DNA of 46,775 nt from a virus, in IMG/VR virus record IMGVR_UViG_3300022072_000020, positions 1-46,775 of that record; one strand, given 5' to 3'. The first letter of the stretch is position 1. Each line of letters opens with the position of its first letter. Below are positions 9,038-29,491 of the stretch, piece by piece. A program made the translations under genes and the position numbers. Under the pieces are notes generated by a model. That model saw only the letters and a list, made by a program, of their open reading frames with translations. It was not told where the DNA came from and searched no databases.

Positions 9038-12000
9038 ATGCCTGAAATTAAAAATACTTTCAATCAAGGTAAAATGAATAAAGACCTTGATGAAAGATTA
9101 ATTCCAAAAGGACAGTATAGAGACGCTTTAAATATCAGCGTTGCAACTTCTGAGGGATCTGACGTTGGTACTGTTCAAAATATCATGGGTAACTCTAGGG
9201 TAGACTCTTTAAGTTCAGGTGGAACTTGCGTTGGAAGTATTTCTAATGAATTAACGAATAAACTCTACACGTTTGTTAAAATGCTTGACAGAGATGTTAT
9301 TGTAGAGTATGATAAATCTGATGCACCTTACTCAGCTAGTTCATTTATAGCTGTAGACTTAGGTGGTGAAAATGCATTTCTAAAATTTACAGGTAAGCAA
9401 GTTACAGGTGTAAATATTATTGATGATTTTCTATTTTGGACAGACGGAGATTCTGAACCAAAAAAGATAAATATCGAGGAGACACGTCATAAAGAAAATC
9501 CTACTAATATAAATTTACACTCTAGATTATATATAGATGGTGAAGATAAAGGGTTTTTAACAGAAGATTACGTTACTGTTATAAAAAAGAAGCCTAGTAT
9601 AGCTCCTACGTATAAAATGAATTCCGCTATTGAAGATGTGAATTCCGCTATTTTTGAAAAAATATTTCCAAGATTTTGTTTTAGATATAAGTACAGAGAC
9701 GGGGAGTATTCCGCTATGGGTCCGTTTACAGATGTAGTATTCAATTCCGAATATGATGATGGGATTAGTTCGCTAAACTCTTATAGTACAGACGAACCGT
9801 ACAACAAGACTATGACAAACGTTATAAAGTCTATAGATCTGTATGATTTTGTACCCTCCGATATACCTAAAGATGTAGTTCAAGTAGATCTTCTTTACAA
9901 GCAAGAAAACTCTAATGTAGTTTATTCTATAGATAATATAAAGTATACAGATTCAGAATGGAGTAAAGCGGGTTCTGGTCAACTAGCTACAAACATATTA
10001 CCAGCAGGTACGCCTAGTGAGCTTGTAACGTTTGGAGAAGTGTCAGCGCATAAGGGAAAGTATAATATATCGACAGAGAGTATACACGCGGCTTTACCTG
10101 AAAACCAACTGCTTAGACCATGGGATAATGTGCCTAGATCCGCTTTAGCTCAAGAAATTGTTGGTAATAGAATAGTGTATGGCAATTACACTCAAGGTTA
10201 CAACTTCGGTAAAGACATCGATGGCAACTTCTTAAAACCAAACGTGTGGTCTGGTTTTGAACTTAGAGAGACTCAAGATTTCAGTGAAGGAGGATTAAGA
10301 TCTTTAAAGTCAAAGAGAGATTATCAAGTTGGAGTTGTATTCGGTGATAAATATGGTAGAGAAACACCTGTTTTCACTTCTAAAAAAGGTGTGAAAATTG
10401 ACTGGAGAAATCCTGAGTTAGGGTTAAACGCTAGCAACTCTAACATGTTCAAGGCATATATAGATTTAGAGCCCGCTGATTGGATTGATTACTATAAGTT
10501 TTATATAAAAGAAACTTCTGGGGAGTACTACAATCTTATCATGGATAAAGCTTATACCCCGCCTAGACACGTGGACTTTCACGATGATAACAATCACTTG
10601 TGGTTATCATTCGCCTCTTCAGATAGAAATAAAATCGTAAAAGAGGATTTTATAACAGTAAAAAAGATATTTAATAATAGTTTATCTACACAGCCTTTAT
10701 TTGATAACAAATACAAAGTTTTAGATATAAGTAATGAAGCTCCAGAGGCTATTAAGTATACGTTCTCTCCTTTAGGTAGAGTAGTAAATAATTTCGATAA
10801 ATTAGCCGGGTACGGCTATAACGATTCTGGAACTTTGGATAATGAGGGCGTGGAAGATCAATCTATATTCTTAAACCCTGACGCTAGAATAGATAAAGAG
10901 GACACGCAAGATATAGAAATAAACGCAACAGGTTGGTTAATATCAGGAGTATTTGGATCTGATCTTTCTCAAGATTTCCTGGCATCAGGCAGTAACAAAG
11001 TATTTATATCATGGGAAAAACACGGTACTCATTCTAAAAGATATAGGATTTCTAGTGTTACGAGAGCGCAAAGCGCAGTTAATACTGCCGGTATTTATCA
11101 CATAAAACTATCTAGTAAAATATCCGCTATAGACGCTAACATAGCTAAAGACCCTAATGGTGACGACTGGTTGTTACATGAAAATTTAACGTTTAAAACT
11201 GAAAGGAGAGATGAAATACCTGGTGAAGATTTTAGTGGTAAATTTTTTGTAAAAATAAAAACAGCTGTAAACTTATTAATAAACGAAGACTCTTCTTTAG
11301 AAAGTCAAAATTACGCGGTCACTTCACAACAGATGTATTGGCTATATAGTGCATATAATACATCTGATAATGATGAAACGTCAGGTCTAATTAACACTAT
11401 TGATCCTGGGGAGCCAGATGGTACTCAATATCCAACAGACATAACACCAGGGTGTGAACCTATACACTGGAGTAATTTATTTGATGTTCTTGACGAGTCT
11501 GACAAAAAGTCTTTCTTTATAGATAACTTGCCTTTCATAGCGTCTAATCCATCTGCGAGTTCTTACGCTAAAGAGTCTGGCGAAGGATGGTTTGGGGCTC
11601 AGACTTATTATCGTAAGTTAGAGTGGAAAAAGCACATAGGCCCATGGAAAGGTGTCTCATATGACGACAATAACAGTTTGCTTAATTTAGCGTTATCAAT
11701 ACACGGTAAAGAATGGCAAGGGCCTTTATTCGGTATGTCTGACGATCTTTTCAACGATGGTGATAATGTAGTTGACGGTTTTGAAAACTTAGAATTACAA
11801 GGTGGTGGAGCTAATTTAGGAGACTGGGAGAACTCTCAGACTAGTGATATGGATTACTACACTTGGCGTGTGAGTAGAAGCGCAGGCGGAAGAGGTGTTA
11901 CCCCGACTGTTTACTTAGCGCAGGGTGACGGTGCGGGACATAGAATTATAAACGGTTTAGAGGGGATCATGACTTCCACGGTTGAGCATACATCATTGTG

Positions 12001-15000
12001 GAGACGATGGAACGTCAATACTATATACCATGCAGACATTGATGTAGACAATACTTACGGTACTTCAAATAGTGATATAGGTAAACATTATATGCATCTT
12101 TCATTCTTAGGTCCTGGTGAAGATCTTATTGATTTGGGTAATGCCACTAGTATAATAAACGACTTAGGGGTAACTAGTCTCGTTGGTAAAGATAGTATAG
12201 CCAGCAAATTACAAGGTATATGGGGTGGAGGTATATTCAATTTACTTCCTACCGCGTCTCAAGGAACAGGGCAAGATACTGCTTTTCCACCTAGTCTTTC
12301 AACAACAGGTGAAAACGCTATTAGTCCAGTTATCGCAGCTTCGGAAGCTGATGGGATACGTATAATGGAGTTTGAAGGGAATTACGATGAAGTAACTGGA
12401 ATAGGTAGAGCGCTTACCCCTAGCGAACTCCAAGGGCAAGGGTATGATGATAGTTATCAGAATTTACATTTAAACCAGTGGAGACCTGAGATCAGCCCGT
12501 CTGGATTAGACACTGATATTCAGTTTTTTGTAAGTCAACTCGAGGAAGGTAACAGGTTTATATTCAAAGATGATCCTGGTAAAATTGTATATACTATACA
12601 AAAGGTTCGTACTAAACACATATACAACCATACGTCATGGAGAATGAGGTGGATATACGACGGAGATGATTATAAAAACGCTGACACCGTTGATTATCCC
12701 CTTAGCGTAGAGGAAGCGGCTAGCGCGTGGGCGAATTCCGTAGCGGTTGATGCAAACCAAACAATTACAGGTGAAGATACTACCGCAACCCAAAATCTTA
12801 TTGAAGCGTTAGAAAACTTTGGGGCAAGACATAATAGGAGAACGTGTTACATAATTGAGCTTGATAAAAACCCTACAGAACAAGGTTACAATCCTGGCGC
12901 TCCGACATTCTCGGTTGATGATGATACTTTTACAAACATTGAATTCTTACACCCAGAGACAAATGTTGAAAACGTTCTTACCACTTTACAGAGTTACCCT
13001 GCTATTTGGGAGACAGAGCCTCAACAACTAACCGATTTAAACATATATTACGAAGCTAGTAGCAATATACCAGTTAGATTAACAAGTGAAAACGCAGAGA
13101 TTTTTGCACCTGTAGGATGCAGAGTGGTTTTAGTAGACGATTTAGGGTTAGAGGTCCCAACTTTAGATGAAGGTAGGATTCCTGGAGAAGCAGGTATATT
13201 TGATTACAACGCCAATAGGCGTATTACAAACTGGATCATTGATGCCGGTGATTTTAATAGCAATCAGTATAACTCATCCGCTGCAAATACAATTTTTAGT
13301 GGTGATGAGTTTGCTGCATTTGAATTAAATTATAACTTTCCACACGATGGTGCCGAAGAAGAAAACAGCACAACAGCAGCAGCTTTAGCTGATGAAGTAG
13401 GCGACCCAGTCGCTGTTAAGTTTATACGAGAAAACGGTAGTTATACTACAGCTAAAATAAAATGGTTTAAGCAATTCTCTGAGCCTGGGGTATTCGATAA
13501 AAGAATTTGGCTTATAAATAAAGATCTAGATCTTTCTCTTGACACGGGATTAAGTTGGTACAATTGTTTTTCTTTTGGAGACGGTATAGAATCTAATAGA
13601 ATTAGAGACACTTTTAACGAGATGCAGATCACAAATGGTGCTCGAGCGTCTTCAACATTAGAAGAGCCATATGCAGAAGAGCACCGCAAACATGGGTTAA
13701 TTTATTCTGGTATATATAATTCTAACAGTGGTATAAACAACCTTAATCAGTTTATCCAAGCAGAAAAGATAACCAAAGATTTAAACCCTACATACGGAAG
13801 TATTCAAAAGCTATTCACAAGAAGCACTGATTTAGTTGCTATGTGCGAAGATAGGGTTTTAAAGATATTAGCAAATAAAGACGCTGTCTTTAACGCGGAT
13901 GGAAACCCTCAACTTGTAGCCACTGAAAACGTCCTTGGACAAGCTGTGCCTTTTGTAGGGGATTATGGTATATCTAAGAACCCTGAGTCTTTTGCTTCTG
14001 AATCATATAGAGCTTATTTTACAGATAAACAAAGAGGTTCAGTCCTTAGACTTTCTATGGACGGATTAACACCTATCTCAGACGCAGGTATGCGTGATTG
14101 GTTTAGAGATAATTTAAGTGAATACAATATAGCGCTTGGTAGTTATGATGACTATAGCAAGCATTATAATCTTACGCTAGACAACTATCCCGTAGATACT
14201 TCGAATTTACTAACTAGCTCTAATGTTGATCAAGGCACAGAGTTAGTAACATATCAAAACGATGTTAATCATTTTCAAGACAGCTTCCCTTTAACAGGCG
14301 TGGATTTAATTCCATCTCCTCATAATATCAATGAAACTTGGCAGAGCCACTACAATCACTGGGGTATCCCGGATATACCGGTTAACCATTCGTTTATCCC
14401 GTTAAAAAACATGTCGTTAAACTCATCGACAGCTATTACTCATCATCCAGCTATACCCAAAGGGCATTTTGTTGAGGCTGTAGAGGGTCAAGATTTTGTG
14501 GGTGAAGCGTTTGGTGAATTTCTGCAAGCGCCTATCATAGATACACCATATGATTCTTTTAACGCTCCGTATTCTGCTAGGTTTAATCTTAACGCTCAAG
14601 AAGTGGTTGCAGACATAGGCGCTTTTAGTTTGGGAAATAATATATTTATAGAGAATCACGGTAGTGGAACTCCTCTTATGTACGCTAGTAGATTTTTTAC
14701 TAGCGCGGATGGAGTTGAAACCACTTACGATGGGCCTCCGGACGCACCAGCGTCTAATACGTTACCCGCATTTGTAGGTTCTATATGGAGACTAGAAAAT
14801 CAAGACAACGACGAACCGGGTGGAATTGTTTTTTCACCAGAAGGTAGTAGTTTTCTGAGTGGGGCTGGTGTAGGAACAGCTATCGATGGTGGATTAAAGT
14901 ATTCTGTAAATATACTAGATAGCTACGTTGACTCACCTATTACTGATTTAACGCACCAGGTGTCTGACGACATTATAGCAAGTTTTCCCGAAGCGACATC

Positions 15001-18000
15001 TAAAACTATATTTAACGGAGAGGAAATAGCTATATATTTCACAACCGGCGTTTTTAATATAACTGACCCGTTTTTTCAGCTAGCTGATGGGTTTAACATG
15101 TTAATAGAGCTATTTGATGGTGAAGAGCCAGTTGACCCAGAGATAATAGCGCCTTTAGGGGACACGCAGTTTGGAAATGCTAACTATATACTTAATAACT
15201 TAACAGATAGCCCTTATGAAGCTCATCACATGCTATTTACGGATTGGACTGGTTACAGCAACGGTAATCCAGACATAGCTTTTGCAGGTGATTACGTTAT
15301 GGGGTGGCAGAGTAATAACGAAGTGCTTTTTCCAGCAATTTGGGCTTTCGTGCCTGGTGTTTATGAAGCAAACGATGAAAACCCTGTACATGGTTCACCT
15401 ACGATGAACTCTGCCGCTTGGAAGTTTTCAGATGGCACTACTCAGGATAGCGTTTTAATAGAAAACCTAGTCGTTAAATTGAGTCTTGTAACTAAACCTA
15501 GCGCCGTTTCGACAAAGTACAGTATATATGTAAACGAGTTTAAACTAGTAAAACCGCATAGCCTTATAAACCCCACGGGTATAGAGGGTCAAGATTTTAT
15601 ACAAGAAGTGAATCCTATCCCATATCGTGATATTCCCGCTTGGGCAGAGGTTAAACATGGGGACGGTAGTGGAGGTATTTTAGGTTGGACCGGTGACGTT
15701 GAAAATAACGGCACTAATCTAATCGATTTTGTTTGGACTAATCAAATTATATATGGAAGACAAAATCTAGGCCAATCGAACACAGAATACGAAGCAGGTG
15801 GGTTAGGTGAATTTGGTGCTCAACATACATATTACTCCCCTACGATTAATGAAGAAACTGGTGAGTATAATGCTGTAAACGAACCGCTACAAGACGGAGG
15901 CGCAATAACTAATTTTGGTGATCACATCGATTTAAGCGATCAACCAGTACCACCTATACCGGGAGAGCAACCCGATCCGTTTGTTAGCATACATGAGGTC
16001 TCTGGTGACAACACGGGAGGTGCAACAGACTCTGCGACACGGATAGAAGTTGATGCAGATAGTACAGCTATCATCTCTCAAGATATTTCCGATAATCCTC
16101 TTGAAAACGGTAATTGGTACTTATTAGATATATCGTATCAACCAGTAGTTGACGATATAGACGCTAATTCTGATGTTAGTTTATTAAATTGTATACCTAC
16201 TGGTTTAATACCCGAGTCTCCTATAGATCAGGATAGTGGTGATCCATCATATCCTTATGGGTATTTTGGAGAAATAAAACCTAATGGTAATTTAAGATTA
16301 CTATCAACAACAAGAACCGAATACGATACCACCGCAGTAGTGAGTAACGTTATTAGATGCATATTCCAATATCCATTTGGATTCCCACCCCTCGAAGAAA
16401 TTAAAATTGCGATAACTAAGCACGATTATGCTAAAGCTATAGACAGTATACGGTTAATAAATATAACAAATCTTACCACTGGCGGAAAAGCAGACAGTTG
16501 GATTACTCCACCAAGTAATTACTTAGGAAGTTCAGATGTTCAAATACCTCCAATCACTTATAATTTATTTGATCAACCAGAGGTATACTTTAAAAATGGA
16601 GCTATTGAGTGGAACACAACGCAAGGCCCTGGTCACGAAAAGTTTATATACCAGAATATTTCACCTAACTTCCCAATGGATAACCCAAACCCAACCCAGC
16701 CATATGAGTTTTCATTTACTATAATCCCAGTTTCAAGTCTTGATATTCAAGGGTCTTTAGCAGGTTATGTTACAGGTAATACGGAGGACGTTGAAGTTGA
16801 TGGTGTTACATCTATCTTGACGCATGGGTTTGGTTTTAATAATTTAACGCAACCTGGAGATTATGTAATCAAAGGTAACATGCTCTCTTATTCTGGAAAT
16901 CCCATATCTGTATTTCTTAATGGTGAAGAAGTAAGCGCCGCAGATGTATTGGCTGGTGATATAAATGGTTTTATTTACAGCGCGTCCACGTTCGCTGAAG
17001 ATGAAAGCTCACCTCTTGGAAATCCTAGAAAAGTGTTTTTTGAACCTGAAGAAAATGGTTTTACGGGCGCCATTAAAGATATTGCTTTACGTGACACAAC
17101 AAACTACTTTACAGGAGGTACAGTGGATTCTTGGAATATAGTGTTTAGTACATCTTTCCAAAATCTCTTGTTCTGGGAAGAAGATCCCGCTGGTGGTGGC
17201 CGTATACGTTTCGAGGGACTCAGAGCTGTATGGGGTAATATCAACCAAAATATAGGTCACATACACACAAATCAAGAGGTTAGACTTTCTTTTGACTGCG
17301 CTCTTGATAACGGTTTTATAGCTGGATATTATTATAATGAAGACGGTAAGGGTTTTGTATTCCAAACCGATATAGAAGCTAACGTATCTTTTGAGCAAGA
17401 CTTCTTTATAGGTACTTCTACTAACGACGATCCAGATAACCTAATAAATACGGTGGTTATAACTTCAGGTTCAAATGATAAAGCTCTTGAGTTGAGAGGT
17501 ACTTTAGATAATATAACTCTAAATAAGATTTTTAGATTAGAAAATTCTACAACAGTTAGTTTTAATGAAGACGTAAGAGGTTGGGAAAGTTTTAAATCTT
17601 TCGTACCAGAAAGTGGTGTTAGTTTATCAAATCAATACTTCACTGTTAAAAACGGTGAACTGTGGCAACATTACACTAACGAAACTAGAGGTTCGTTTTA
17701 CGGAGAGCAATATGAAGCGTCTGTTACGGCTATATTGAATGAAACCCCTTCATCTATAAAGAGTTTTAACACTATAAATTACGAGGGTTCACAAGCTATG
17801 GTTAAAGCTTTCGCTAAAGCTGAAAATTCAACAGCTACGACGCTATCTACCTATAACGCTTTTACCAACGACCGCTTAGGCTGGGAGATGGAGTCTTTTG
17901 AAACAGATCTTCAAAAAGGTTTTATAAGTGAATTTATAGAGAAAGAAGGTAAATGGTTTAATTATATAAAAGGATCAAGGCTTTCCACTGAAAATATTGA

Positions 18001-18052
18001 TACAGCTAATTTCAATTTTCAAGGTTTAGGTATAGTTTCATCAACGCATTAA
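9038..18052 (+). CDS. Giant tail nozzle/stabilisation-type virion protein
   Basis: At 3004 aa this is the longest gene in the window, about 19 percent of it. Residues 1 to 35 (KNTFNQGKMNKDLDERLIP, then GQYRDALNISV) resemble the first strand of the beta-propeller in P22 gp10 / T7 gp12-type nozzle proteins, and about the first 650 residues plus residues about 1480 to 1720 look like this structural core. The rest is beta-rich with many aromatic and acidic residues. Two segments with the pattern TGGxxDSW at about residues 2480 and 2690 and two EGQDF segments at about 1816 and 2183 point to duplicated, possibly carbohydrate-binding modules. No enzyme motif was recognised. The protein probably closes the tail and carries receptor-facing domains. 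The reading frame is intact throughout. Confidence 0.62.
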   Translation: MPEIKNTFNQGKMNKDLDERLIPKGQYRDALNISVATSEGSDVGTVQNIMGNSRVDSLSSGGTCVGSISNELTNKLYTFVKMLDRDVIVEYDKSDAPYSASSFIAVDLGGENAFLKFTGKQVTGVNIIDDFLFWTDGDSEPKKINIEETRHKENPTNINLHSRLYIDGEDKGFLTEDYVTVIKKKPSIAPTYKMNSAIEDVNSAIFEKIFPRFCFRYKYRDGEYSAMGPFTDVVFNSEYDDGISSLNSYSTDEPYNKTMTNVIKSIDLYDFVPSDIPKDVVQVDLLYKQENSNVVYSIDNIKYTDSEWSKAGSGQLATNILPAGTPSELVTFGEVSAHKGKYNISTESIHAALPENQLLRPWDNVPRSALAQEIVGNRIVYGNYTQGYNFGKDIDGNFLKPNVWSGFELRETQDFSEGGLRSLKSKRDYQVGVVFGDKYGRETPVFTSKKGVKIDWRNPELGLNASNSNMFKAYIDLEPADWIDYYKFYIKETSGEYYNLIMDKAYTPPRHVDFHDDNNHLWLSFASSDRNKIVKEDFITVKKIFNNSLSTQPLFDNKYKVLDISNEAPEAIKYTFSPLGRVVNNFDKLAGYGYNDSGTLDNEGVEDQSIFLNPDARIDKEDTQDIEINATGWLISGVFGSDLSQDFLASGSNKVFISWEKHGTHSKRYRISSVTRAQSAVNTAGIYHIKLSSKISAIDANIAKDPNGDDWLLHENLTFKTERRDEIPGEDFSGKFFVKIKTAVNLLINEDSSLESQNYAVTSQQMYWLYSAYNTSDNDETSGLINTIDPGEPDGTQYPTDITPGCEPIHWSNLFDVLDESDKKSFFIDNLPFIASNPSASSYAKESGEGWFGAQTYYRKLEWKKHIGPWKGVSYDDNNSLLNLALSIHGKEWQGPLFGMSDDLFNDGDNVVDGFENLELQGGGANLGDWENSQTSDMDYYTWRVSRSAGGRGVTPTVYLAQGDGAGHRIINGLEGIMTSTVEHTSLWRRWNVNTIYHADIDVDNTYGTSNSDIGKHYMHLSFLGPGEDLIDLGNATSIINDLGVTSLVGKDSIASKLQGIWGGGIFNLLPTASQGTGQDTAFPPSLSTTGENAISPVIAASEADGIRIMEFEGNYDEVTGIGRALTPSELQGQGYDDSYQNLHLNQWRPEISPSGLDTDIQFFVSQLEEGNRFIFKDDPGKIVYTIQKVRTKHIYNHTSWRMRWIYDGDDYKNADTVDYPLSVEEAASAWANSVAVDANQTITGEDTTATQNLIEALENFGARHNRRTCYIIELDKNPTEQGYNPGAPTFSVDDDTFTNIEFLHPETNVENVLTTLQSYPAIWETEPQQLTDLNIYYEASSNIPVRLTSENAEIFAPVGCRVVLVDDLGLEVPTLDEGRIPGEAGIFDYNANRRITNWIIDAGDFNSNQYNSSAANTIFSGDEFAAFELNYNFPHDGAEEENSTTAAALADEVGDPVAVKFIRENGSYTTAKIKWFKQFSEPGVFDKRIWLINKDLDLSLDTGLSWYNCFSFGDGIESNRIRDTFNEMQITNGARASSTLEEPYAEEHRKHGLIYSGIYNSNSGINNLNQFIQAEKITKDLNPTYGSIQKLFTRSTDLVAMCEDRVLKILANKDAVFNADGNPQLVATENVLGQAVPFVGDYGISKNPESFASESYRAYFTDKQRGSVLRLSMDGLTPISDAGMRDWFRDNLSEYNIALGSYDDYSKHYNLTLDNYPVDTSNLLTSSNVDQGTELVTYQNDVNHFQDSFPLTGVDLIPSPHNINETWQSHYNHWGIPDIPVNHSFIPLKNMSLNSSTAITHHPAIPKGHFVEAVEGQDFVGEAFGEFLQAPIIDTPYDSFNAPYSARFNLNAQEVVADIGAFSLGNNIFIENHGSGTPLMYASRFFTSADGVETTYDGPPDAPASNTLPAFVGSIWRLENQDNDEPGGIVFSPEGSSFLSGAGVGTAIDGGLKYSVNILDSYVDSPITDLTHQVSDDIIASFPEATSKTIFNGEEIAIYFTTGVFNITDPFFQLADGFNMLIELFDGEEPVDPEIIAPLGDTQFGNANYILNNLTDSPYEAHHMLFTDWTGYSNGNPDIAFAGDYVMGWQSNNEVLFPAIWAFVPGVYEANDENPVHGSPTMNSAAWKFSDGTTQDSVLIENLVVKLSLVTKPSAVSTKYSIYVNEFKLVKPHSLINPTGIEGQDFIQEVNPIPYRDIPAWAEVKHGDGSGGILGWTGDVENNGTNLIDFVWTNQIIYGRQNLGQSNTEYEAGGLGEFGAQHTYYSPTINEETGEYNAVNEPLQDGGAITNFGDHIDLSDQPVPPIPGEQPDPFVSIHEVSGDNTGGATDSATRIEVDADSTAIISQDISDNPLENGNWYLLDISYQPVVDDIDANSDVSLLNCIPTGLIPESPIDQDSGDPSYPYGYFGEIKPNGNLRLLSTTRTEYDTTAVVSNVIRCIFQYPFGFPPLEEIKIAITKHDYAKAIDSIRLINITNLTTGGKADSWITPPSNYLGSSDVQIPPITYNLFDQPEVYFKNGAIEWNTTQGPGHEKFIYQNISPNFPMDNPNPTQPYEFSFTIIPVSSLDIQGSLAGYVTGNTEDVEVDGVTSILTHGFGFNNLTQPGDYVIKGNMLSYSGNPISVFLNGEEVSAADVLAGDINGFIYSASTFAEDESSPLGNPRKVFFEPEENGFTGAIKDIALRDTTNYFTGGTVDSWNIVFSTSFQNLLFWEEDPAGGGRIRFEGLRAVWGNINQNIGHIHTNQEVRLSFDCALDNGFIAGYYYNEDGKGFVFQTDIEANVSFEQDFFIGTSTNDDPDNLINTVVITSGSNDKALELRGTLDNITLNKIFRLENSTTVSFNEDVRGWESFKSFVPESGVSLSNQYFTVKNGELWQHYTNETRGSFYGEQYEASVTAILNETPSSIKSFNTINYEGSQAMVKAFAKAENSTATTLSTYNAFTNDRLGWEMESFETDLQKGFISEFIEKEGKWFNYIKGSRLSTENIDTANFNFQGLGIVSSTH

Positions 18053-18062
18053 GTGCAGAATC

Positions 18063-19484
18063 ATGAGTTATCATAATACAAACACAAGTGGCTCTACGCA
18101 ATCAACGCAACGGTCTACTAGGCAATCGCAACAGAATATACTAACGTATATCGATAATGAACCTTTGTTTAAAACTATACAGCAAGCGCTAGACTACGGT
18201 CAAAGCGTGGGTTTACAAGGTTACCATACGCATACTTTTAGGGGCGATGTTGGTTATATGGCTGGCATTAATCATTCGCGAGCTGATTCAAGCGTTACTC
18301 AAAAAGAAGTATTAAAAAAAATACAATCACTATTTATACCCTTAAACACACTACCTTATCTAGCTTCTACGCGAAGCTTCGCGATTAAAGGTGACGAGGG
18401 AGCTAGTTTTATTTTACAAGTTGTAACATCTAATAACTTATTTTACAATTTTAAAACCAAAACTTTTGCAGCTGGTTTTAGTTCTAAAAACGCTTTAAAA
18501 GCCAAGGTAAGTGGTGGTGAGTATAACGGGGTTATAAATTTCCCGACTAATGGAGACGGCCTTACGTACACTATGATACTTATGGCTGATCCTTCAACTG
18601 ACACTGTGTTAAACAAAAACGTTATACATAGAAATATATCTCAAGTTGCGAATGTTACCGTTACATTTTCCGGTCTTACCGCCAACGGTAGCAGCTATGC
18701 TGCCACAGGTGAGGACGCGGTATACACTGCCTCTCCAGCGCTTTCGCATTCAACCAATGTTGATATTGATACTTTTGTTACAAATTCAAAAAATGATACA
18801 AACGGTTTTGGTTTAAGGTTAATAAGGCAACCAAGAGACACCGACTGGGTGTTTCAAAAAACGCAGACTGTAGATGGAGCTATAAGTGGTTCTACCACCG
18901 TAGTGCTTGATGATGTATCAGATTTAGCTGTTGGGACTATTCTAAAGGGTGTTAGCGCTGGTAGCCTTTCTGGCTCGCCGAAAATACAAAGCATAAACAC
19001 TAATACTAAAACGTTAACTTTATCTTCTGCACAAACTTTCGCAGACGGTATAACTTTGACTTTTCACGCTATAGGGTTTAAAGCTATTAAAAAAGCTATT
19101 GGGTTAAGTATGAGTTTCATATCTTCCAGCGCTACGGCTGATGCTTTAACTAAAACAGTTAGAGTAACGTCATCAAGTAGTACTAATGTTGATTTATTAG
19201 GTACATACGGGATTGCTGGTGGAAATAATTTAACTATACTAGGTGAAGGCGTTGATAACGCTACGGCTACTACCGTAGCATCTATAAGCAGTCCATCTGC
19301 AACGGCTGGCACTATGGTGGTATCTAGAGCGCAAACTTTAAAAGCTGGAACAAAACTATATCTTTCAGGTAGCACACAAAAGGTGAGAACTAGTAATCGC
19401 TTTAAAATAAATAAATACCCAAGTTCTAATAGAACGATACACTTTTTGTTAGATAACTTTATAACGGTAGGCACACAGACATGA
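18063..19484 (+). CDS. Virion protein with repeated beta segments, probable tail/fibre component
   Basis: The 473-aa product starts with a serine-, threonine- and glutamine-rich disordered tail, then residues 25 to 75 contain an ALDYGQSVGLQGYHTHTFRG block followed by GYMAGINH. I recall such a YHTH segment from many marine phage virion proteins. The remaining 370 residues are rich in T, S, V and A and read as successive beta strands of the kind found in fibres or baseplate-associated proteins. No signal peptide or catalytic motif is visible. It follows the giant nozzle gene by 10 bases and its stop overlaps the next start (ATGA). A role in the adsorption apparatus is inferred from position and composition. 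Confidence 0.5.
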   Translation: MSYHNTNTSGSTQSTQRSTRQSQQNILTYIDNEPLFKTIQQALDYGQSVGLQGYHTHTFRGDVGYMAGINHSRADSSVTQKEVLKKIQSLFIPLNTLPYLASTRSFAIKGDEGASFILQVVTSNNLFYNFKTKTFAAGFSSKNALKAKVSGGEYNGVINFPTNGDGLTYTMILMADPSTDTVLNKNVIHRNISQVANVTVTFSGLTANGSSYAATGEDAVYTASPALSHSTNVDIDTFVTNSKNDTNGFGLRLIRQPRDTDWVFQKTQTVDGAISGSTTVVLDDVSDLAVGTILKGVSAGSLSGSPKIQSINTNTKTLTLSSAQTFADGITLTFHAIGFKAIKKAIGLSMSFISSSATADALTKTVRVTSSSSTNVDLLGTYGIAGGNNLTILGEGVDNATATTVASISSPSATAGTMVVSRAQTLKAGTKLYLSGSTQKVRTSNRFKINKYPSSNRTIHFLLDNFITVGTQT

Positions 19485-19819
19485 TAATACAATTAACTAG
19501 TAAAATAGATAACGCATCTTTGCAGGTAGGGGACTTTGCGTACTATATCTCATCTACTTCGCTAACTGATTTCGATGGACAAGCTGTTGGTAGTGAGCCA
19601 TTGCTTATAGGCAAGATAACGGACATGAGTAATAAAACTATAACTGTAGATGCTACTAAGTATATACCAATTGGATCGTACATAATGTTTGCGAAAGATA
19701 ATAGAGCTAATAGTGGTAGTTTAAAAGGGTATTACGCAAGCGTTAAAATGAAAAATACTGACTCTAAGCAGGCTGAATTATTTGCTATAAGTTCTGAGGT
19801 AACTGAAAGTAGTAAATAA
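19481..19819 (+). CDS. Small beta-rich virion-region protein
   Basis: The 112-aa protein is predicted to be mostly beta strand (ASLQVGDFAYYIS, EPLLIGKITDM, KTITVDATKYIPIGSYIMFA) with a short lysine-containing C terminus. It looks like a compact beta barrel. It overlaps the preceding virion gene by four bases, so the two are likely translationally coupled and may form a complex. I do not recognise a family. It is followed by about 75 bp without a gene, which holds only a weak 7-bp inverted repeat (ACACTAA at 19820-19826 and TTAGTGT at 19841-19847). Confidence 0.5.
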   Translation: MIIQLTSKIDNASLQVGDFAYYISSTSLTDFDGQAVGSEPLLIGKITDMSNKTITVDATKYIPIGSYIMFAKDNRANSGSLKGYYASVKMKNTDSKQAELFAISSEVTESSK

Positions 19820-22708: not shown

Positions 22709-25700
22709 ATGGAAGAATTATGGAAAGGACTCGTTGAAAAAGGTTTATACACTAAATCTTTTAGCAAGTTCCAAGAGCAATATAATAATCAAGAGGGTGT
22801 AAAGAAATTACACACTGGTTTAGTAAACAAAAACTTATACACGAAAAGTGAGGAGGATTTTGCTAATCAGTATGGGTTTGTTTCTACACCTAACGTTATC
22901 GCAGCGTCTCAAAGCGCGAGTGAATCTAGTATGGGTTCAACTGATGAAGATGAGCTACCTGAAGATAAAGGATGGTTTGAAGACATGTTCACCGCGATAT
23001 CTGGAGGGGCTAAAGCTGGTTCGGGTGTTGGTGAAGCTTTTGACGTGTACAGGCAAGGGCGTAATATATCAGAGGAAGATTTAAAGGGTTTTGTGAAAGC
23101 GGCAAACGCTATGACAGAAAATCCAGAAACAAACGAAGCTGCTTCTTGGAGGAAAGACACAGAAAAATATGGAGGTGGTTTCTTGGGAGGTTTTATGGGT
23201 TTATTAGAAAACCCAGGTTACGCACCTCAATTTATAGCATCTTCATTTGCAACAATGGTCTCTTCTTTAGTTGACTCAGAGGAGGTTGCAGCAGCTACCG
23301 CAGTTGGAGCAGGTGGTGGAGCAGCTGTTGGAGGTGGTATTGGAGCTGCCGCAGCCTCTATAGGAGGTCCAATAGGAGCGGCTTTAGGTTATGTTGGCGG
23401 AGCTGGTGCTGGAGCTATAGGTGGAGGTATGGCAGGTTTAGTTGGTGCTATGGAAACTGGTTTGACTTTGACGGATCTATTGAGAGATGAGCTAGGGGAT
23501 AAAGACTTTAATGAGAAAAACATAAGAGCTCTACTGAATGATAAAGACGTTATGGATAGGGTTAAATCAAGATCTTTAGCTAGAGGTTTAACTATTGGAG
23601 CTGTGGAGGGTTTAACATTTGGTCTTTCTAGAGGTGTTGCAGGTACAATACTTGGTTCAGCTACAAAACGAGGGGCTGTAGGTTTATCAAAAGCAGGTTT
23701 AAAAACAGGCGCTAAAGTAGCCGCGGCAACCACAGCGGTAGAGATGGTTGGAGGTGGTGGTGGAGAAGCTTTAGGTATGCTAGCCGCTGGACAAGAATTA
23801 AAAGGAGAGGAGATATTCCTAGAGGCTATAGGTGAGGCAAAAGGTGCTGTTAATACTTCAGATATAGTTAAATCAGCTCTGACAAATACCTCGTATAAGT
23901 TGAACGGTGAAGATGTTACCACTGATAAGATAAAAGAAATAATAGATAACCCTAACACTTCTAAAGCTGATTTAGCTAAGATGAATATAGAGGTTACCGG
24001 TGATAAGGCGTTTGATAATTTCGTAAAGTCTAAGCAGAATGAAGCTGTTGTATATTCTCAGATTGACGAAAGTATCACAGACGAAAAAGATAGAAATGAG
24101 TTAGTAGAATTAGCGTTTAAAAGAGACAATGCTATAGCTAATACCAAAAAAGAAGGTGTTAATCAAGTTCCTGGGGCGCAGCAGGCTTTAGAAGATATAG
24201 AGTCTAGTATTAGCGATATCATAAATAAATATGAAGGAGCTGTAGATGTGGCTGCTACACAAGAGGCAGCCGATGTTCGTAAAGCTAGACGTGATATAAG
24301 TTTAGCAAAGACAATAAACTTTCTTGAGACAAACAAAAATTACACAGGTAAAGAAGTTGTTATAGCTGATGACGATGCCTCTGCTCAAATAGCTCACGAT
24401 AAAGCTGTTGAAGAATACAACGCTAAGCAGACTGATCCTGAGAAAATGCTAGGAGATGAAAACGTTTCTGGTGCAGACGGTTTTATAGTTGGAGATGTTA
24501 TTGTTATAAATAAAGACGTAGCTGGCAGAACAGGTCAGATAAATGTTGGTGCACATGAGTTACTACACGGAATTGTAGCTAAACACATGAAAAGTTTAAG
24601 CGTAAAAGAACAAAACAATCTTATGGGTAGTTTTGTAGATGTTTTAACTAAAGATCAAAAAAAGTATGTCGAAACAGAGTTTAACCGTAGAAAAGATACC
24701 GGTGAATCTTTAGACCCTTCAGAGTGGTTAACTATATTCTCTGATGGTATAACTAAAGGTAAGATTAAATTTGACGAAGGAGTTTTTGATAAGTTAAAAA
24801 ACATTATTCAGGAAATACTAAGAAAGATAGGTTATCCTAAAGAGTTTAAAAACGGTAGACAAGTTTACAACTTTATGAAAGACTATCAGAAAAGCGTTGC
24901 TGCTGGTGGTCAGATTAGCGCAAGAGCTATAGCTCTAGCTGGTGGAGGTGTAACAGCTGGTGAAACTTCGTTTTCTAGATCTGCTTCAGATAAAGTTCAA
25001 AGCATATACAACGAACAAGGAGAAGCAGGTGCTTTTGATATCATAAATGAATTTAAACCTATAGTAAACAGAATAGCTGAGTCTAGAAGAGGTGCGCCGA
25101 ATTTTGATAAGCAATTATTAATAGACGAAATCGAAACTGGTAAGCGCGGTATATATGATTTAATCCGTGAATATAATCCAGACTCAGGTGTACCACTAGC
25201 AGCTTGGATTAATAAATATCTTCCAGCTAGAGCTATCGAAGCTTCAAAAAGAGTTTTAGGTGAAGAGTTTACAGATGACGTAACTGAAAAAGTTGACATA
25301 GCAGCTGAAGAAGCACCTACTCCAGAAGTTAAAGCAAAGCCTAGAAAAAGAAAGATAGTTTTAGCTGAGCGATTGGGCATTAGTGAAGACGTGTCAAAAG
25401 CTATAAGTAAGTTAGTTCCTACTTTAGATTTAGAAGCGTTAACGTTTAAAAGTTTAAAAAACAAGATACCTAATATAACAGGTGAATTATTTGGTATATC
25501 ACCGAAAAAGATAATTAGTGGAGCTAATATAACAAAAAAAGAGTTACAGTCAGCTCAAATGTTTATTAGTAAAAACGTAGATTTATTAATAGCTATGCTA
25601 CCTGAAGGCGCCACAACTGGTGGTACCGCTACAGGTATGCCTAATACTTTATTAAAGGCTTTTTACACTAAAACCGATAGAGCTAAAATGGCTGGAACGG

Positions 25701-28700
25701 GTAGCAAAGCTGGTCTAGCTATTCAAGTTAAAAACCCTAACATAACTAGAGCGGATTTCTTAGAGACATTCGGTATCATAGATGGTAAACCAGATCGTAC
25801 AGATAGGAACACATCGGCTAGAGTGTTAGCGTTAGCGAACCTAACTGGTAAAATGATAACCAATCAAGCGGTTAGACAACAAGTTAGATCAGAAAACTTA
25901 AGAAGCTTAGAAGATGGTAAAAGCAGCATTATGTTTAGTAAGGCAGATGCTGATATAGCTAAACTATTTAATCAAGAAAAATCGTATTATGAGATAAACG
26001 ATCTAAATAGCGTTGAAAGATATATAGATGTAGACGTGCCGAGACTTATTAAGGTTTTTGAAAAGTACCCAGGCTTGTTAACTGGTAATGAACTTGTAAA
26101 CGGTTTAAATGCTATAAGAAATCAAAGCTTGAAACAACCTCTTAGAGACGGTGTAAAAAAATATGACGAATTAAAAGTTAGAGGTAAATACCCAAAAAGA
26201 GACTTTGCTAAATATGTTGGTAACAAAGTTGAACAGATGGATACTGCTAAAATAAATGAATTTAACAGGCAAGCGGGTATTAATTTTGATGCGCATTGGA
26301 AAGCTATAGATAAGGCGTTGTATAATGACCCTACTTTGTTAGGGCCTATACTTATATATTTAAGTAATGCTATTAATTCTAAAACGCATATTCATAGATC
26401 TGGAGCAGAGTTTATATCTTATGACAAGACTACTAAAGGTCGACTTTACTTAGAACATGCCTTGCAAAACGTTAAAGCTTACAGGACTTTGATAAAAGCT
26501 TCTATGAACGACAAAACAGCAGGTCGTTCTGAGTTTAAGAAAACTATAAAAGCTTTAAAGAATAACTATAAGCTTATTGGAGTAAGTGTTACCGATAACA
26601 CTAAATTAGACAAAGGTAGCTATGTAGATGAAAACGGCAAAACTGTATCATTTAAAAATGAAATGGGTTTAGGTTGGGATATTTTTAATAACAAGTGGCA
26701 TGAAAGATATTTTAACAAAATAATAAACGATTTAGGTGGTATAAACCCTGAGAATTTCACTGTAGTTAATTCAAATAAATCACTAGCGGAAGAGTTAAAT
26801 ATAAATTCAGAAGGTGGAATTAGGTTTAGCAAAACTGGAATCGATAATTTTAAAATATTAAATACTGCTATAGCTAACGCTAGAATTAGTAAAGCTTCTA
26901 AACCGACAAAAGGTATCACCGTTCTCGACTTTGATGACACGTTAGCCACAACTAAATCTAAAGTCCTTATAACAGCTCCTGATGGTGTTAAAAGCAAGTT
27001 AAACGCGGAAGAGTTTGCGAAACAAGGCGCTGATCTTTTAGCTGAAGGTTATAAATTTGATTTCTCAGAATTCAATAAAGTTGTTAAAGGTAAGACTGCG
27101 CCGTTGTTCAACAAAGCAATGAAGCTCTCAGGTAAGTTTGGGACAGACAACATGTTTGTTTTAACTGCTAGATCTCCTGAGTCTGCTAAAGCTATTAAGC
27201 AGTTTTTAGATGCTCAAGGGTTAGATATACCCCTTAAGAATATAACAGGTTTAGGAAAGTCGGAAGCTGAGGCTAAAGCTTTATGGATAGCTGAAAAAGT
27301 TGGAGAAGGTTACAACGACTTTTACTTTGCGGATGATGCTATTCAAAATGTTAAGGCTGTTAAGAATATGCTAGATCAATTTGACGTTAAGTCTAAAGTT
27401 CAGCAAGCCAGAGTGAAGTTCAGTCAAAGCATGGATAGTGAGTTTAACAAAATCCTTGAAGATATATTAGGTATAGAAGCTGCTAAAAGGTTTTCTAGTA
27501 TGAAAGCTCGTAAGAGAGGTGAAAGTAAAGGTAAGTTTAGATTCTTTATACCTCCATCTCATGAGGACTTCGTTGGGTTGCTTTACAACTTCATGGGCGC
27601 AGGTAAGAAAGGTGACGCGCATAGAGACTTTTTAGAGCAAGCTTTAATTAGACCTTTAAATAGAGCTAACAAAGAACTTGATACAGCTAGACAAAGTATA
27701 GCTAACGACTTTAAATCTTTAAACAAAAGATTTCCTGATGTTAAAAGTAAACTCAAAAAGAAAACACCAGAGGGTGATTTTACCAATGAAGACGCTATAA
27801 GAGTTTATCTATGGGATACAAACGGTTATGATATACCTGGTATAACTAAAACAGATCAAAAGAATTTAGTTGACTATATCAACTCTAATCCAGAGCTGAG
27901 AGCTTACGCGGATACCTTAAGCGTTATATCCAAACAAGAAGCCTACGTAAGTCCTACAGAAGGGTGGGAGTCTGGTGATATTAGAATGGATCTAAACGAC
28001 GCAACTGGTAGAGTTGGTAGAGAAGAGTATTTTGCAGAGTTTTTACAAAACACGGATATAATATTTTCTAAAGAAAACCTCAACAAGATCGAAGCTGGGT
28101 ACGGTAAAGGTGTTAGAGAAGCTTTAGAGGATATGTTGTACCGAATTAAAAATGGTAGAAACAGACCTAGTGGAAGTAACGCTTTAGTAAATAGATTTGT
28201 TAACTATATAAATGGGGCTGTTGGTAGTGTTATGTTCTTTAACATAAGATCAGCTGTTCTTCAGCAGATGTCTATAGTGAACTACATAAACTTTGCTGAC
28301 AACAACATGTTTAACGCGGCTAAGGCTTTTGCTGACCAAAAGCAATACTGGAGCGATTGGTCTTATATATTTAACTCTGACATGCTAAAGCAGAGAAGAG
28401 GTGGTATACAGACTGACGTTAACGGATCTGAGCTAGCTGAAACTATCAGTAAGTCTAAATTCCCTATGAGAACTTTAATAAGGGAGCTCTTGAAGATTGG
28501 TTTCACACCTACACAAATCGGTGATAATATAGCTATTGCAACCGGTGGCGCTACATATTATAGAAATAGAATTAAAACATATTTAAAGCAAGGTTTATCT
28601 AAGACTGAAGCTGAGGCAAAAGCTTGGACGGATTTCCAAGATATAACACAGTCTACTCAGCAGTCTGCTAGACCAGACATGGTGTCTCAACAGCAAGCTT

Positions 28701-29491
28701 CACCTCTTGGTAAGTTTATACTAGCGTTTCAAAACGTAACATCTCAGTTTAACAGGTTAGGTAAAAAAGCGTTTTTGGATATAAAAAACAGAAGAATAAC
28801 AAAGCCTAATACTTCGCAGTTCCAAAGCGATGTGTCTAACGCGTCTAGAATCATGTATTACTTTGCTATGCAAAACATGATATTCTATGGACTACAGACG
28901 GCTTTATTCGCCGCTCTGTTTGACGATAACGAAGATGATGAAAAGTTTCTTAAAAAGAAAGAGAGAATGATAAACGGTAGTATTGACTCTGTTTTAAGAG
29001 GAAGCGGAGTTATGGGAGCTGTTGTAGCTACAGTTAAAAATATGGCTATGAAGTTTGCGGAGCAAAGGGAAGCTGGTTATAATAAAGATGAAAGTGCTGT
29101 TTTAATGGAGATGTTAAACGTGTCTCCTCCTCTAGGTATTAAAGCTAGAAAAGTAGTTAACGCTGAAAAAACATTAAACTACAACAAGAAAGCTATAGAA
29201 GAAATGGAGACCCTTGATATTGACAATCCTCAATGGTCTGCAGCCACTAGTTACATTGAAGGTATTACTAATATTCCATTAAACAGACTATATAACAAAA
29301 CGCAAAACATGAGAGAAGCCTTGAACAACCAGCACTCAGCTTGGCAAAGAGCTTTAATGTTTATGGGTTGGAGTAAATATAATCTAGGAGTAAATGAAGA
29401 AGAGAAAGACTCTACTTCGTCTAAACGAAAAAGTACATCACGAGGCACCTCATCGCGAGGTGGATCATCAAGAGGTGGTAGTAAAAGATAA
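22709..29491 (+). CDS. Giant polyvalent internal virion protein (protease-, sigma- and HAD-like modules)
   Basis: This 2260-aa protein is a string of modules. Residues 4 to 60 hold two copies of a short repeat (LVEKGLYTKSF and LVNKNLYTKSE). Residues about 190 to 255 are a glycine/alanine-rich membrane-type segment. HELLHGIVAKH at 616-626 fits the HExxHxxxxxH zinc-protease pattern. Residues about 785 to 865 resemble sigma-70 region 2. DFDDT at 1407-1411, the LTAR threonine at 1486 and FADD with D1542 and D1543 fit motifs I, II and IV of HAD phosphatases. The last 600 residues are mostly helical, and the final 22 are S, R, G and K. Short F-S-K/R/Q motifs sit between modules. This is the build of large polyvalent proteins injected with phage DNA. 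The frame is intact. Confidence 0.7.
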   Translation: MEELWKGLVEKGLYTKSFSKFQEQYNNQEGVKKLHTGLVNKNLYTKSEEDFANQYGFVSTPNVIAASQSASESSMGSTDEDELPEDKGWFEDMFTAISGGAKAGSGVGEAFDVYRQGRNISEEDLKGFVKAANAMTENPETNEAASWRKDTEKYGGGFLGGFMGLLENPGYAPQFIASSFATMVSSLVDSEEVAAATAVGAGGGAAVGGGIGAAAASIGGPIGAALGYVGGAGAGAIGGGMAGLVGAMETGLTLTDLLRDELGDKDFNEKNIRALLNDKDVMDRVKSRSLARGLTIGAVEGLTFGLSRGVAGTILGSATKRGAVGLSKAGLKTGAKVAAATTAVEMVGGGGGEALGMLAAGQELKGEEIFLEAIGEAKGAVNTSDIVKSALTNTSYKLNGEDVTTDKIKEIIDNPNTSKADLAKMNIEVTGDKAFDNFVKSKQNEAVVYSQIDESITDEKDRNELVELAFKRDNAIANTKKEGVNQVPGAQQALEDIESSISDIINKYEGAVDVAATQEAADVRKARRDISLAKTINFLETNKNYTGKEVVIADDDASAQIAHDKAVEEYNAKQTDPEKMLGDENVSGADGFIVGDVIVINKDVAGRTGQINVGAHELLHGIVAKHMKSLSVKEQNNLMGSFVDVLTKDQKKYVETEFNRRKDTGESLDPSEWLTIFSDGITKGKIKFDEGVFDKLKNIIQEILRKIGYPKEFKNGRQVYNFMKDYQKSVAAGGQISARAIALAGGGVTAGETSFSRSASDKVQSIYNEQGEAGAFDIINEFKPIVNRIAESRRGAPNFDKQLLIDEIETGKRGIYDLIREYNPDSGVPLAAWINKYLPARAIEASKRVLGEEFTDDVTEKVDIAAEEAPTPEVKAKPRKRKIVLAERLGISEDVSKAISKLVPTLDLEALTFKSLKNKIPNITGELFGISPKKIISGANITKKELQSAQMFISKNVDLLIAMLPEGATTGGTATGMPNTLLKAFYTKTDRAKMAGTGSKAGLAIQVKNPNITRADFLETFGIIDGKPDRTDRNTSARVLALANLTGKMITNQAVRQQVRSENLRSLEDGKSSIMFSKADADIAKLFNQEKSYYEINDLNSVERYIDVDVPRLIKVFEKYPGLLTGNELVNGLNAIRNQSLKQPLRDGVKKYDELKVRGKYPKRDFAKYVGNKVEQMDTAKINEFNRQAGINFDAHWKAIDKALYNDPTLLGPILIYLSNAINSKTHIHRSGAEFISYDKTTKGRLYLEHALQNVKAYRTLIKASMNDKTAGRSEFKKTIKALKNNYKLIGVSVTDNTKLDKGSYVDENGKTVSFKNEMGLGWDIFNNKWHERYFNKIINDLGGINPENFTVVNSNKSLAEELNINSEGGIRFSKTGIDNFKILNTAIANARISKASKPTKGITVLDFDDTLATTKSKVLITAPDGVKSKLNAEEFAKQGADLLAEGYKFDFSEFNKVVKGKTAPLFNKAMKLSGKFGTDNMFVLTARSPESAKAIKQFLDAQGLDIPLKNITGLGKSEAEAKALWIAEKVGEGYNDFYFADDAIQNVKAVKNMLDQFDVKSKVQQARVKFSQSMDSEFNKILEDILGIEAAKRFSSMKARKRGESKGKFRFFIPPSHEDFVGLLYNFMGAGKKGDAHRDFLEQALIRPLNRANKELDTARQSIANDFKSLNKRFPDVKSKLKKKTPEGDFTNEDAIRVYLWDTNGYDIPGITKTDQKNLVDYINSNPELRAYADTLSVISKQEAYVSPTEGWESGDIRMDLNDATGRVGREEYFAEFLQNTDIIFSKENLNKIEAGYGKGVREALEDMLYRIKNGRNRPSGSNALVNRFVNYINGAVGSVMFFNIRSAVLQQMSIVNYINFADNNMFNAAKAFADQKQYWSDWSYIFNSDMLKQRRGGIQTDVNGSELAETISKSKFPMRTLIRELLKIGFTPTQIGDNIAIATGGATYYRNRIKTYLKQGLSKTEAEAKAWTDFQDITQSTQQSARPDMVSQQQASPLGKFILAFQNVTSQFNRLGKKAFLDIKNRRITKPNTSQFQSDVSNASRIMYYFAMQNMIFYGLQTALFAALFDDNEDDEKFLKKKERMINGSIDSVLRGSGVMGAVVATVKNMAMKFAEQREAGYNKDESAVLMEMLNVSPPLGIKARKVVNAEKTLNYNKKAIEEMETLDIDNPQWSAATSYIEGITNIPLNRLYNKTQNMREALNNQHSAWQRALMFMGWSKYNLGVNEEEKDSTSSKRKSTSRGTSSRGGSSRGGSKR

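Follow-up and report, generated by a model that had tools for sequence, protein, structure and literature searches.

A recurring F-S motif marks module joints in a giant modular protein of a crAss-like phage and may be a processing site

Introduction

Phages and conjugative elements encode polyvalent proteins, in phages very large proteins that lie in the virion gene block and combine several unrelated domains, including an HExxH zincin. According to the main text of Iyer et al. 2017 (PMC5512222), these proteins contain zincins more often than any other domain, and zincin self-processing is proposed as a general theme; whether and when zincins cut their own protein is left open there. A zincin is also present in DdrB of phage P1, a large polyvalent protein that, according to the same text, undergoes processing before it is packaged. 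Here we analyse P0001, a 2260-amino-acid (aa) protein that shares this build, and a short F-S motif at its module joints. P0001 is encoded on the plus strand at 22709..29491 of a 46,775-nucleotide stretch of viral DNA (IMG/VR virus record IMGVR_UViG_3300022072_000020, positions 1 to 46,775; hereafter the window). The main text on polyvalent proteins is without a joint motif, whereas the P0001 family carries a lineage-specific motif at its joints whose spelling varies by lineage. DIRFS-like strings may also be present at the ends of domains in other polyvalent proteins; they carry no weight in this analysis.

The cargo proteins of phage phiCrAss001 (gp45, gp46, gp47, gp49 and gp50; Bayfield et al. 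2023, PMC10172136) offer a second comparison. Their genes are located downstream of the muzzle and portal genes, as is that of P0001, and these big proteins, like P0001, must exit via a narrow tail. The stems 'cleav' and 'proteoly' are absent from the main text on this cargo. Cellulophaga phages phi18:3 and phi38:1 encode gp123 (1935 aa, annotated as a virion protein by tandem mass spectrometry) and gp101 (1691 aa), which resemble P0001 in gene position, each being encoded by the final gene of the virion block, behind the portal and other structural genes. Unlike P0001, both are devoid of HExxH and show no excess of FS[KR], and neither matches the N-terminal, C-terminal or zincin models built for P0001. 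No joint or cleavage motif in such proteins was found in the literature searched, whose coverage leaves out most subscription journals. Self-processing as a prediction dates from 2017; neither the joint motif nor its dialects turned up in the literature searched.

Results

Joint motifs in P0001

A first-pass annotation of the window proposed that short strings of the form hydrophobic/basic-F-S-[K/R/Q/S] bound the modules of P0001. The six strings it quoted are present at residues 755, 1076, 1373, 1571, 1595 and 1786 of the 2260-aa open reading frame (ORF). The full set of F-S occurrences comprises SFSK at 18, IFSD at 677, SFSR at 755, MFSK at 1076, RFSK at 1373, DFSE at 1452, KFSQ at 1571, RFSS at 1595 and IFSK at 1786, and includes a seventh FS[KRQS] string, at residue 18, that the annotation left out. 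FS[KR] is in excess over shuffles of the same protein (5 vs 0.92 expected, P 0.002), as is FS[KRQS] (7 vs 1.60, P 0.0011); F-S alone shows no excess by the same shuffling (9 vs 6.7, P 0.23). FS[KR] is rare in the remaining listed ORFs of the window.

Module borders are found at the first four of the quoted sites. All features of P0001 lie on the plus strand, and the prefix W denotes residue numbering of the window protein. The joint F755-S-R (SFSRS, 24971..24979) closes the disordered segment W745-755, which has a predicted local distance difference test score (pLDDT) under 50 in AlphaFold2 (AF2) models, and a sigma-like fold begins directly, from W754. The joint F1076-S-K (IMFSK, 25934..25942) is located within blocks whose pLDDT averages about 50. 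The joint F1373-S-K (IRFSK, 26825..26833), recognized from sequence and relatives, lies upstream of the HAD domain, 26 residues before the HAD fold begins. The joint F1571-S-Q (VKFSQS, 27419..27427) is the most conserved one and reads FS[KR] in most relatives. It falls within W1568-1572, again with pLDDT under 50, directly after the HAD fold ends at W1568.

The two remaining sites were also taken for borders, and this part of the proposal did not hold. RFSS at 1595 (27491..27499) and IFSK at 1786 (28064..28072) both lie inside the conserved C-terminal domain, the latter in a helix region that AF2 folds with confidence. FS[KR] occurs at these positions in 6/97 and 20/97 alignment rows, compared to 63/97 at 1571. 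Because F and S are common there but K/R is not kept, we regard both strings as part of the domain, separate from the joint motif. SFSK at 18 (22760..22768) is part of an N-terminal repeat, and no sign supports it as a joint. The proposed spacing of roughly 200 to 320 residues describes four of the intervals (321, 297, 198 and 191) but not the 24 residues between 1571 and 1595. As for the wording of the motif, the F-S core stands, but its upstream flank is better described by V or I at position -2 and, in most cases, K at position -1; K or R usually follows F-S, though not exclusively, as E, N, Q, A and others appear as lineage spellings.

Conservation and module exchange

Relatives of P0001 were gathered from uncultivated viral contigs: 16 loci at first, later 80 kept of 186 with the C-terminal domain, and more added afterwards. 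Complete relatives number 95; individual relatives are labelled L001, L002 and so on. Across about 95 relatives, the joint consensus approximates [VI]-K-F-S-[KR]-S. Of 98 proteins, 87 keep the F of the 1571 site and 96 the S. Position -2 is V or I in 79 and position -1 is K in 55; the residue following F-S is K or R in 75, and the one after that is S in 50. Within the variable parts of 15 relatives, counted without duplicate contexts, no tripeptide is more over-represented than FSK (24 vs 6.3); among 4-mers, FSKS comes third (9 vs 0.4), behind HELL and ELLH. FS[KR] occurs 232 times in 208,422 aa of the giant proteins and 57 times in 234,595 aa of the remaining ORFs of these loci, a 4.6-fold difference in density. 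An IKFSK string in the 649-aa neighbour of P0001 (20738-22687) was considered as a second substrate and rejected, as the corresponding neighbours at other loci do not conserve it.

The alignment of homologues that had been suggested as a check on the proposal bore it out: motifs persist while the modules between them swap, as judged by the clustering of breakpoints among 83 relatives. In this set, breakpoints are the ends of local homology between relatives, "near" means within 10 residues, and the expectation comes from rotated motif positions. Breakpoint clusters were near FS[KR] in 207/2933 cases (66.3 +- 8.1 expected), and the excess remained when the conserved 1571 site was set aside (101 vs 48.9 +- 6.8). 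F-S followed by other letters gave no breakpoint excess without that site (119 vs 120.3). Among 15 proteins, 32/231 clusters were near FS[KR] against 7.6 expected, and KFS ranked first and FSK second of 170 tripeptides at homology breakpoints.

Breakpoints that coincide with a motif would also be seen if the motif were a by-product of DNA recombination, with modules exchanged through short stretches of DNA common to the joints, or of gene conversion. The codons largely refute such a DNA-level cause, which we regard as scarcely credible. Of 48 genes with two or more FSK joints, 28 mix AGY and TCN serine codons, two families that are not linked by a single synonymous change, and the FSK codons within a gene resemble each other no more than permuted codons do (0.797 vs 0.802 +- 0.014). 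AGY accounts for 58/60 cases at the 1571 site, and TCN for 57/93 at other joints. Furthermore, where a gene spells its joints ESK or FSE, those sites differ in DNA. Since the joints of one gene draw on different serine codon families, the motif is held by selection on the protein and not by shared DNA.

Some relatives carry extra modules. Where these are inserted serially between the HAD and C-terminal domains, an FS motif is found at both ends in 4/4 proteins (L015, L056, L149 and L095); in L095, the module is bounded by VKFSLS at 1849 and FSRS at 2025. Where the insertion is nested in the HAD domain, the stretch from the HAD start to its second half is free of the motif in 11/11 proteins. 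The second half was located in 9/11 of these and inferred from length in L033 and L043, and many of the nested cases share one kinase insert, so that they do not represent 11 independent events. The pattern fits a cut site, because cutting in a nested pair would break the HAD domain.

The main rival holds that the motif is a docking tag, one per module, by which a shared partner (the portal, an inner core protein or the C-terminal domain) holds or threads the module in packaging or ejection, with no cutting. Docking would account for conservation at the protein level, for disorder at the joints, for confinement to one protein and for changes of spelling at the joints, and the main text of Iyer et al. 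2017 (PMC5512222) describes N4 virion RNA polymerase and plasmid TraC1 as delivered uncut despite a peptidase domain. Docking alone, however, would not lead one to expect a single motif at each serial border and its absence from nested ones. We consider it unlikely, and prefer to read the motif as a candidate cleavage site.

Lineage-specific spellings

Several lineages respell the motif at more than one joint. L086 and L092, whose zincin reads HDGLH, carry ESK at all three anchored joints (the equivalents of 755, 1076 and 1571). FSE is found at three joints of L025 (zincin HDAFH) and at four of L037, which has no FS[KR]. FSE is also repeated in L141-L143, and FSA in L085 and L144, at two joints each. 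The ESK just before the HAD domain of L086 and L092 was dropped as a fourth switched joint, since ESKGIT is common there in relatives.

Permutations that ignore kinship indicate that the spellings go together within a protein. The word found at a protein's own 1571 site recurs elsewhere in it 119 times, compared to 79.8 +- 6.8 when words are permuted among 94 proteins, and 28 times (12.0 +- 3.4) in the 30 proteins whose 1571 site is not FS[KR]. A further joint, AQxKAAFS, has the same word as the 1571 site in 10/11 proteins (permutation P 0.0001).

These spellings bear on the idea that the motif only reflects how linkers or the ends of domains are built, as in a last beta strand, and needs no reader. 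Some module ends are indeed strand-like VKFS, and several joints admit other hydrophobic residues (M, Y, L, V). A structural feature of this kind does not explain why the motif follows unrelated modules alike (the zincin region, the sigma-like module, the HAD domain and unnamed ones) or why several joints are respelled together in some lineages, and we judge it highly unlikely as the source of the motif. A motif recognized by a protein factor is more in keeping with both.

At the 1571 site, the distant relatives L146, L147, L148, L150 and L152 read ALAS[KT] or ILAGK. L147 has ASK or AST words at three other places, which are possible joints.

The embedded zincin

P0001 encodes a zincin-type metallopeptidase-like domain at residues 521-710 (24269..24838), identified from the AF2 model and by fold comparison. 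The structural aligner VIA-align matches W521-710 to the catalytic domain of lethal factor with Z 6.1 over 160 aligned residues, which is under the tool's safe level, and to PPEP-3 with Z 4.5. HELLH at 616-620 (24554..24568) is the putative zinc-binding active site. H616, H620 and E672 are nearly invariant in the A2 alignment, and within this set the domain combines the HExxH of polyvalent zincins with a downstream Glu. A loose pattern finds that Glu in 31/95 relatives, its near-invariance being established for the A2 set.

H[ED]xxH is kept in 95/95 complete relatives, as HExxH in 91 and HDxxH in 4. The HDxxH form is confined to L025 (position 1030), L086, L092 and L138 (868), and these proteins also have unusual joint spellings (FSE, ESK).

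Domain architecture and genome context

AF2 was run with the window and relative sequences, and two models were obtained. Foldseek returned no hit at E <= 0.001 for either model, and Pfam placed no domain above cut-off in P0001. Weak matches to phrog_311 and DUF826 around residues 1550-1600 were not used.

The N-terminal part (residues 89-514, 22973..24250) matches phrog_32588, a phage family of unknown function (E 3.1e-52). It is preceded by an LYTKS...F repeat at residues 13-55 (window 22709-22880), which is also seen near the N terminus of L003, L004, L005, L007 and L015. The first module after the zincin starts with a sigma70 region 2-like fold (residues 754-851, 24968..25261). VIA-align superimposes W754-851 on 6ca0_F with Z 8.3 and a root mean square deviation (rmsd) of 3.1 over 93 aligned residues, and sigma factors fill the top rows. 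The HAD phosphatase-like domain (residues 1399-1568, 26903..27412) aligns most closely with the 3' phosphatase of T4 Pnkp (5uj0_A, Z 11.0, rmsd 2.7, 125 aligned), and the first five VIA-align rows are polynucleotide kinase-phosphatases. A conserved helical C-terminal domain, defined by alignment and AF2 (residues 1574-2235, 27428..29413), completes the protein. Its mean column identity is 77% in 15 sequences, and AF2 confidence is low in its last third. P0001 therefore unites zincin-like, sigma70 region 2-like and HAD phosphatase-like folds, several unrelated effector-type domains in one ORF, as polyvalent proteins do, and its relatives additionally carry a Zeta toxin/AAA_33 kinase.

In L013 and L015, this P-loop kinase, recognized by Pfam, is nested inside the HAD domain, and nine more relatives have an insert there, mostly of equal length. 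A HAD domain with a nested kinase looks like a kinase-phosphatase end-repair enzyme in unusual nested order. L001, a close relative, has a different domain nested in its HAD at about 1660-1780, which may be ADP-ribosyltransferase-like.

The window encodes a 3004-aa ORF (9038-18052, plus strand) that matches the crassvirus muzzle (Pfam crAss_MUZ, E 7.7e-13; crAss_MUZ_C, E 3.3e-9), and its portal gene is located at 668-3082 (PHROG match, E 1.5e-151). Based on the muzzle and portal matches, we assign it to a crAss-like phage. Named phages with related portals infect Flavobacterium, Cellulophaga, Tenacibaculum and Maribacter. The giant gene lies downstream of muzzle and portal within this crassvirus virion block, the position of Crassvirales cargo genes, and P0001 is probably carried in the particle of a marine crAss-like phage. 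When the complete P0001 sequence was compared by tblastn with 50,697 phage records, nothing matched at 1e-5. Modules of L072 and L020, sought in named phages as a sign of the motif travelling outside the family, likewise gave no match. A contig filed under a Maricaulis metagenome-assembled genome (L100) carries the C-terminal domain at 70% identity; it is probably a misbinned phage contig and was not used. Long open frames also occur on the minus strand inside plus-strand genes, for example at window 19064-19492.

Discussion

Judged from sequence, the joint motif borders unrelated modules, sits in disordered stretches, is upheld at the protein level, is private to the P0001-type protein and in some lineages is respelled at several joints together, and for these reasons it appears to require a reader. 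This reader may be a protease, and the embedded zincin is the obvious candidate, because it is never lost and because Iyer et al. 2017, in the main text, argued for zincin self-processing on other grounds. On the evidence from sequence, we give an even chance to the motif being the tag that the embedded zincin recognizes, and most likely the site at which it cuts.

P0001 would then be a delivery precursor composed of an N-terminal part, the embedded zincin, a run of swappable effector modules and the conserved C-terminal domain. The modules in the window protein would be the sigma-like one, one of unknown fold and the HAD phosphatase. The joint motif, [VI]-K-F-S-[KR]-S in its usual spelling, would be read by one protein factor. 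The zincin of the same chain could cut at or next to F-S, either before or after injection, and the released modules would travel or act separately. Four cuts would yield pieces whose ends, to within a few residues, are 1-754, 755-1075, 1076-1372, 1373-1570 and 1571-2260.

A more tentative extension, which we rate as somewhat short of even, is that tag and reader co-vary by lineage (FSK, FSR, FSE, ESK, FSA), making the protein a self-cutting cargo precursor with its own code. Effectors might then be plugged in serially if they bring the local tag spelling, which we hold with the same reserve.

Several observations weigh against this interpretation. A disordered, charged linker at W856-878 is without the motif, some relatives have few motif copies, and the distant lineage L146-L152 has lost the F at the 1571 site, with only weak repetition of ASK. 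L138, the third member of the L086 group and close to L092, spells its joints ESK, EAK and ESK, with EAK at the 1076-type joint. In a tree-aware test, the FSE link is not significant (3.9 independent pairs support it, 0 oppose it and 3.1 are undecided; median p 0.125; underpowered), nor is non-canonical spelling overall (3.2 pairs in support, 1.1 opposed, median p 0.63; underpowered), and neither FSN nor FSR shows a signal. The joint immediately upstream of the HAD domain is not concordant, being SR-type whatever the 1571 site, and a looser motif definition gave no concordance (202/420, P 0.13). Homologous zincins without the motif are encoded by elemoF (gp18, E 9e-10) and by the Manatee Spring phage (E 4e-8), whose giant protein is also picked up by the N-terminal hidden Markov model (E 5e-17). 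Finally, the HDxxH lineages retain an altered motif, though a changed catalytic Glu should weaken the enzyme.

The last two points are what would be expected if the joints were cut by another phage or host protease and not by the embedded zincin. A general enzyme of this kind should cut further virion proteins, yet the motif is not a feature of the other ORFs in these loci, and such an enzyme would leave the retention of the zincin in all complete relatives to be explained. We regard cutting by another protease as quite unlikely and favour the embedded zincin as the enzyme that may act on the joints.

If the motif is a cut site, the borders of each injected effector could be read from sequence, and the modules could be cloned with correct ends. 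The changes of spelling within these proteins would serve as natural experiments on recognition. If tag and reader do co-vary by lineage, the P0001 family would be a phage parallel to polyproteins whose protease and cleavage sites evolve together.

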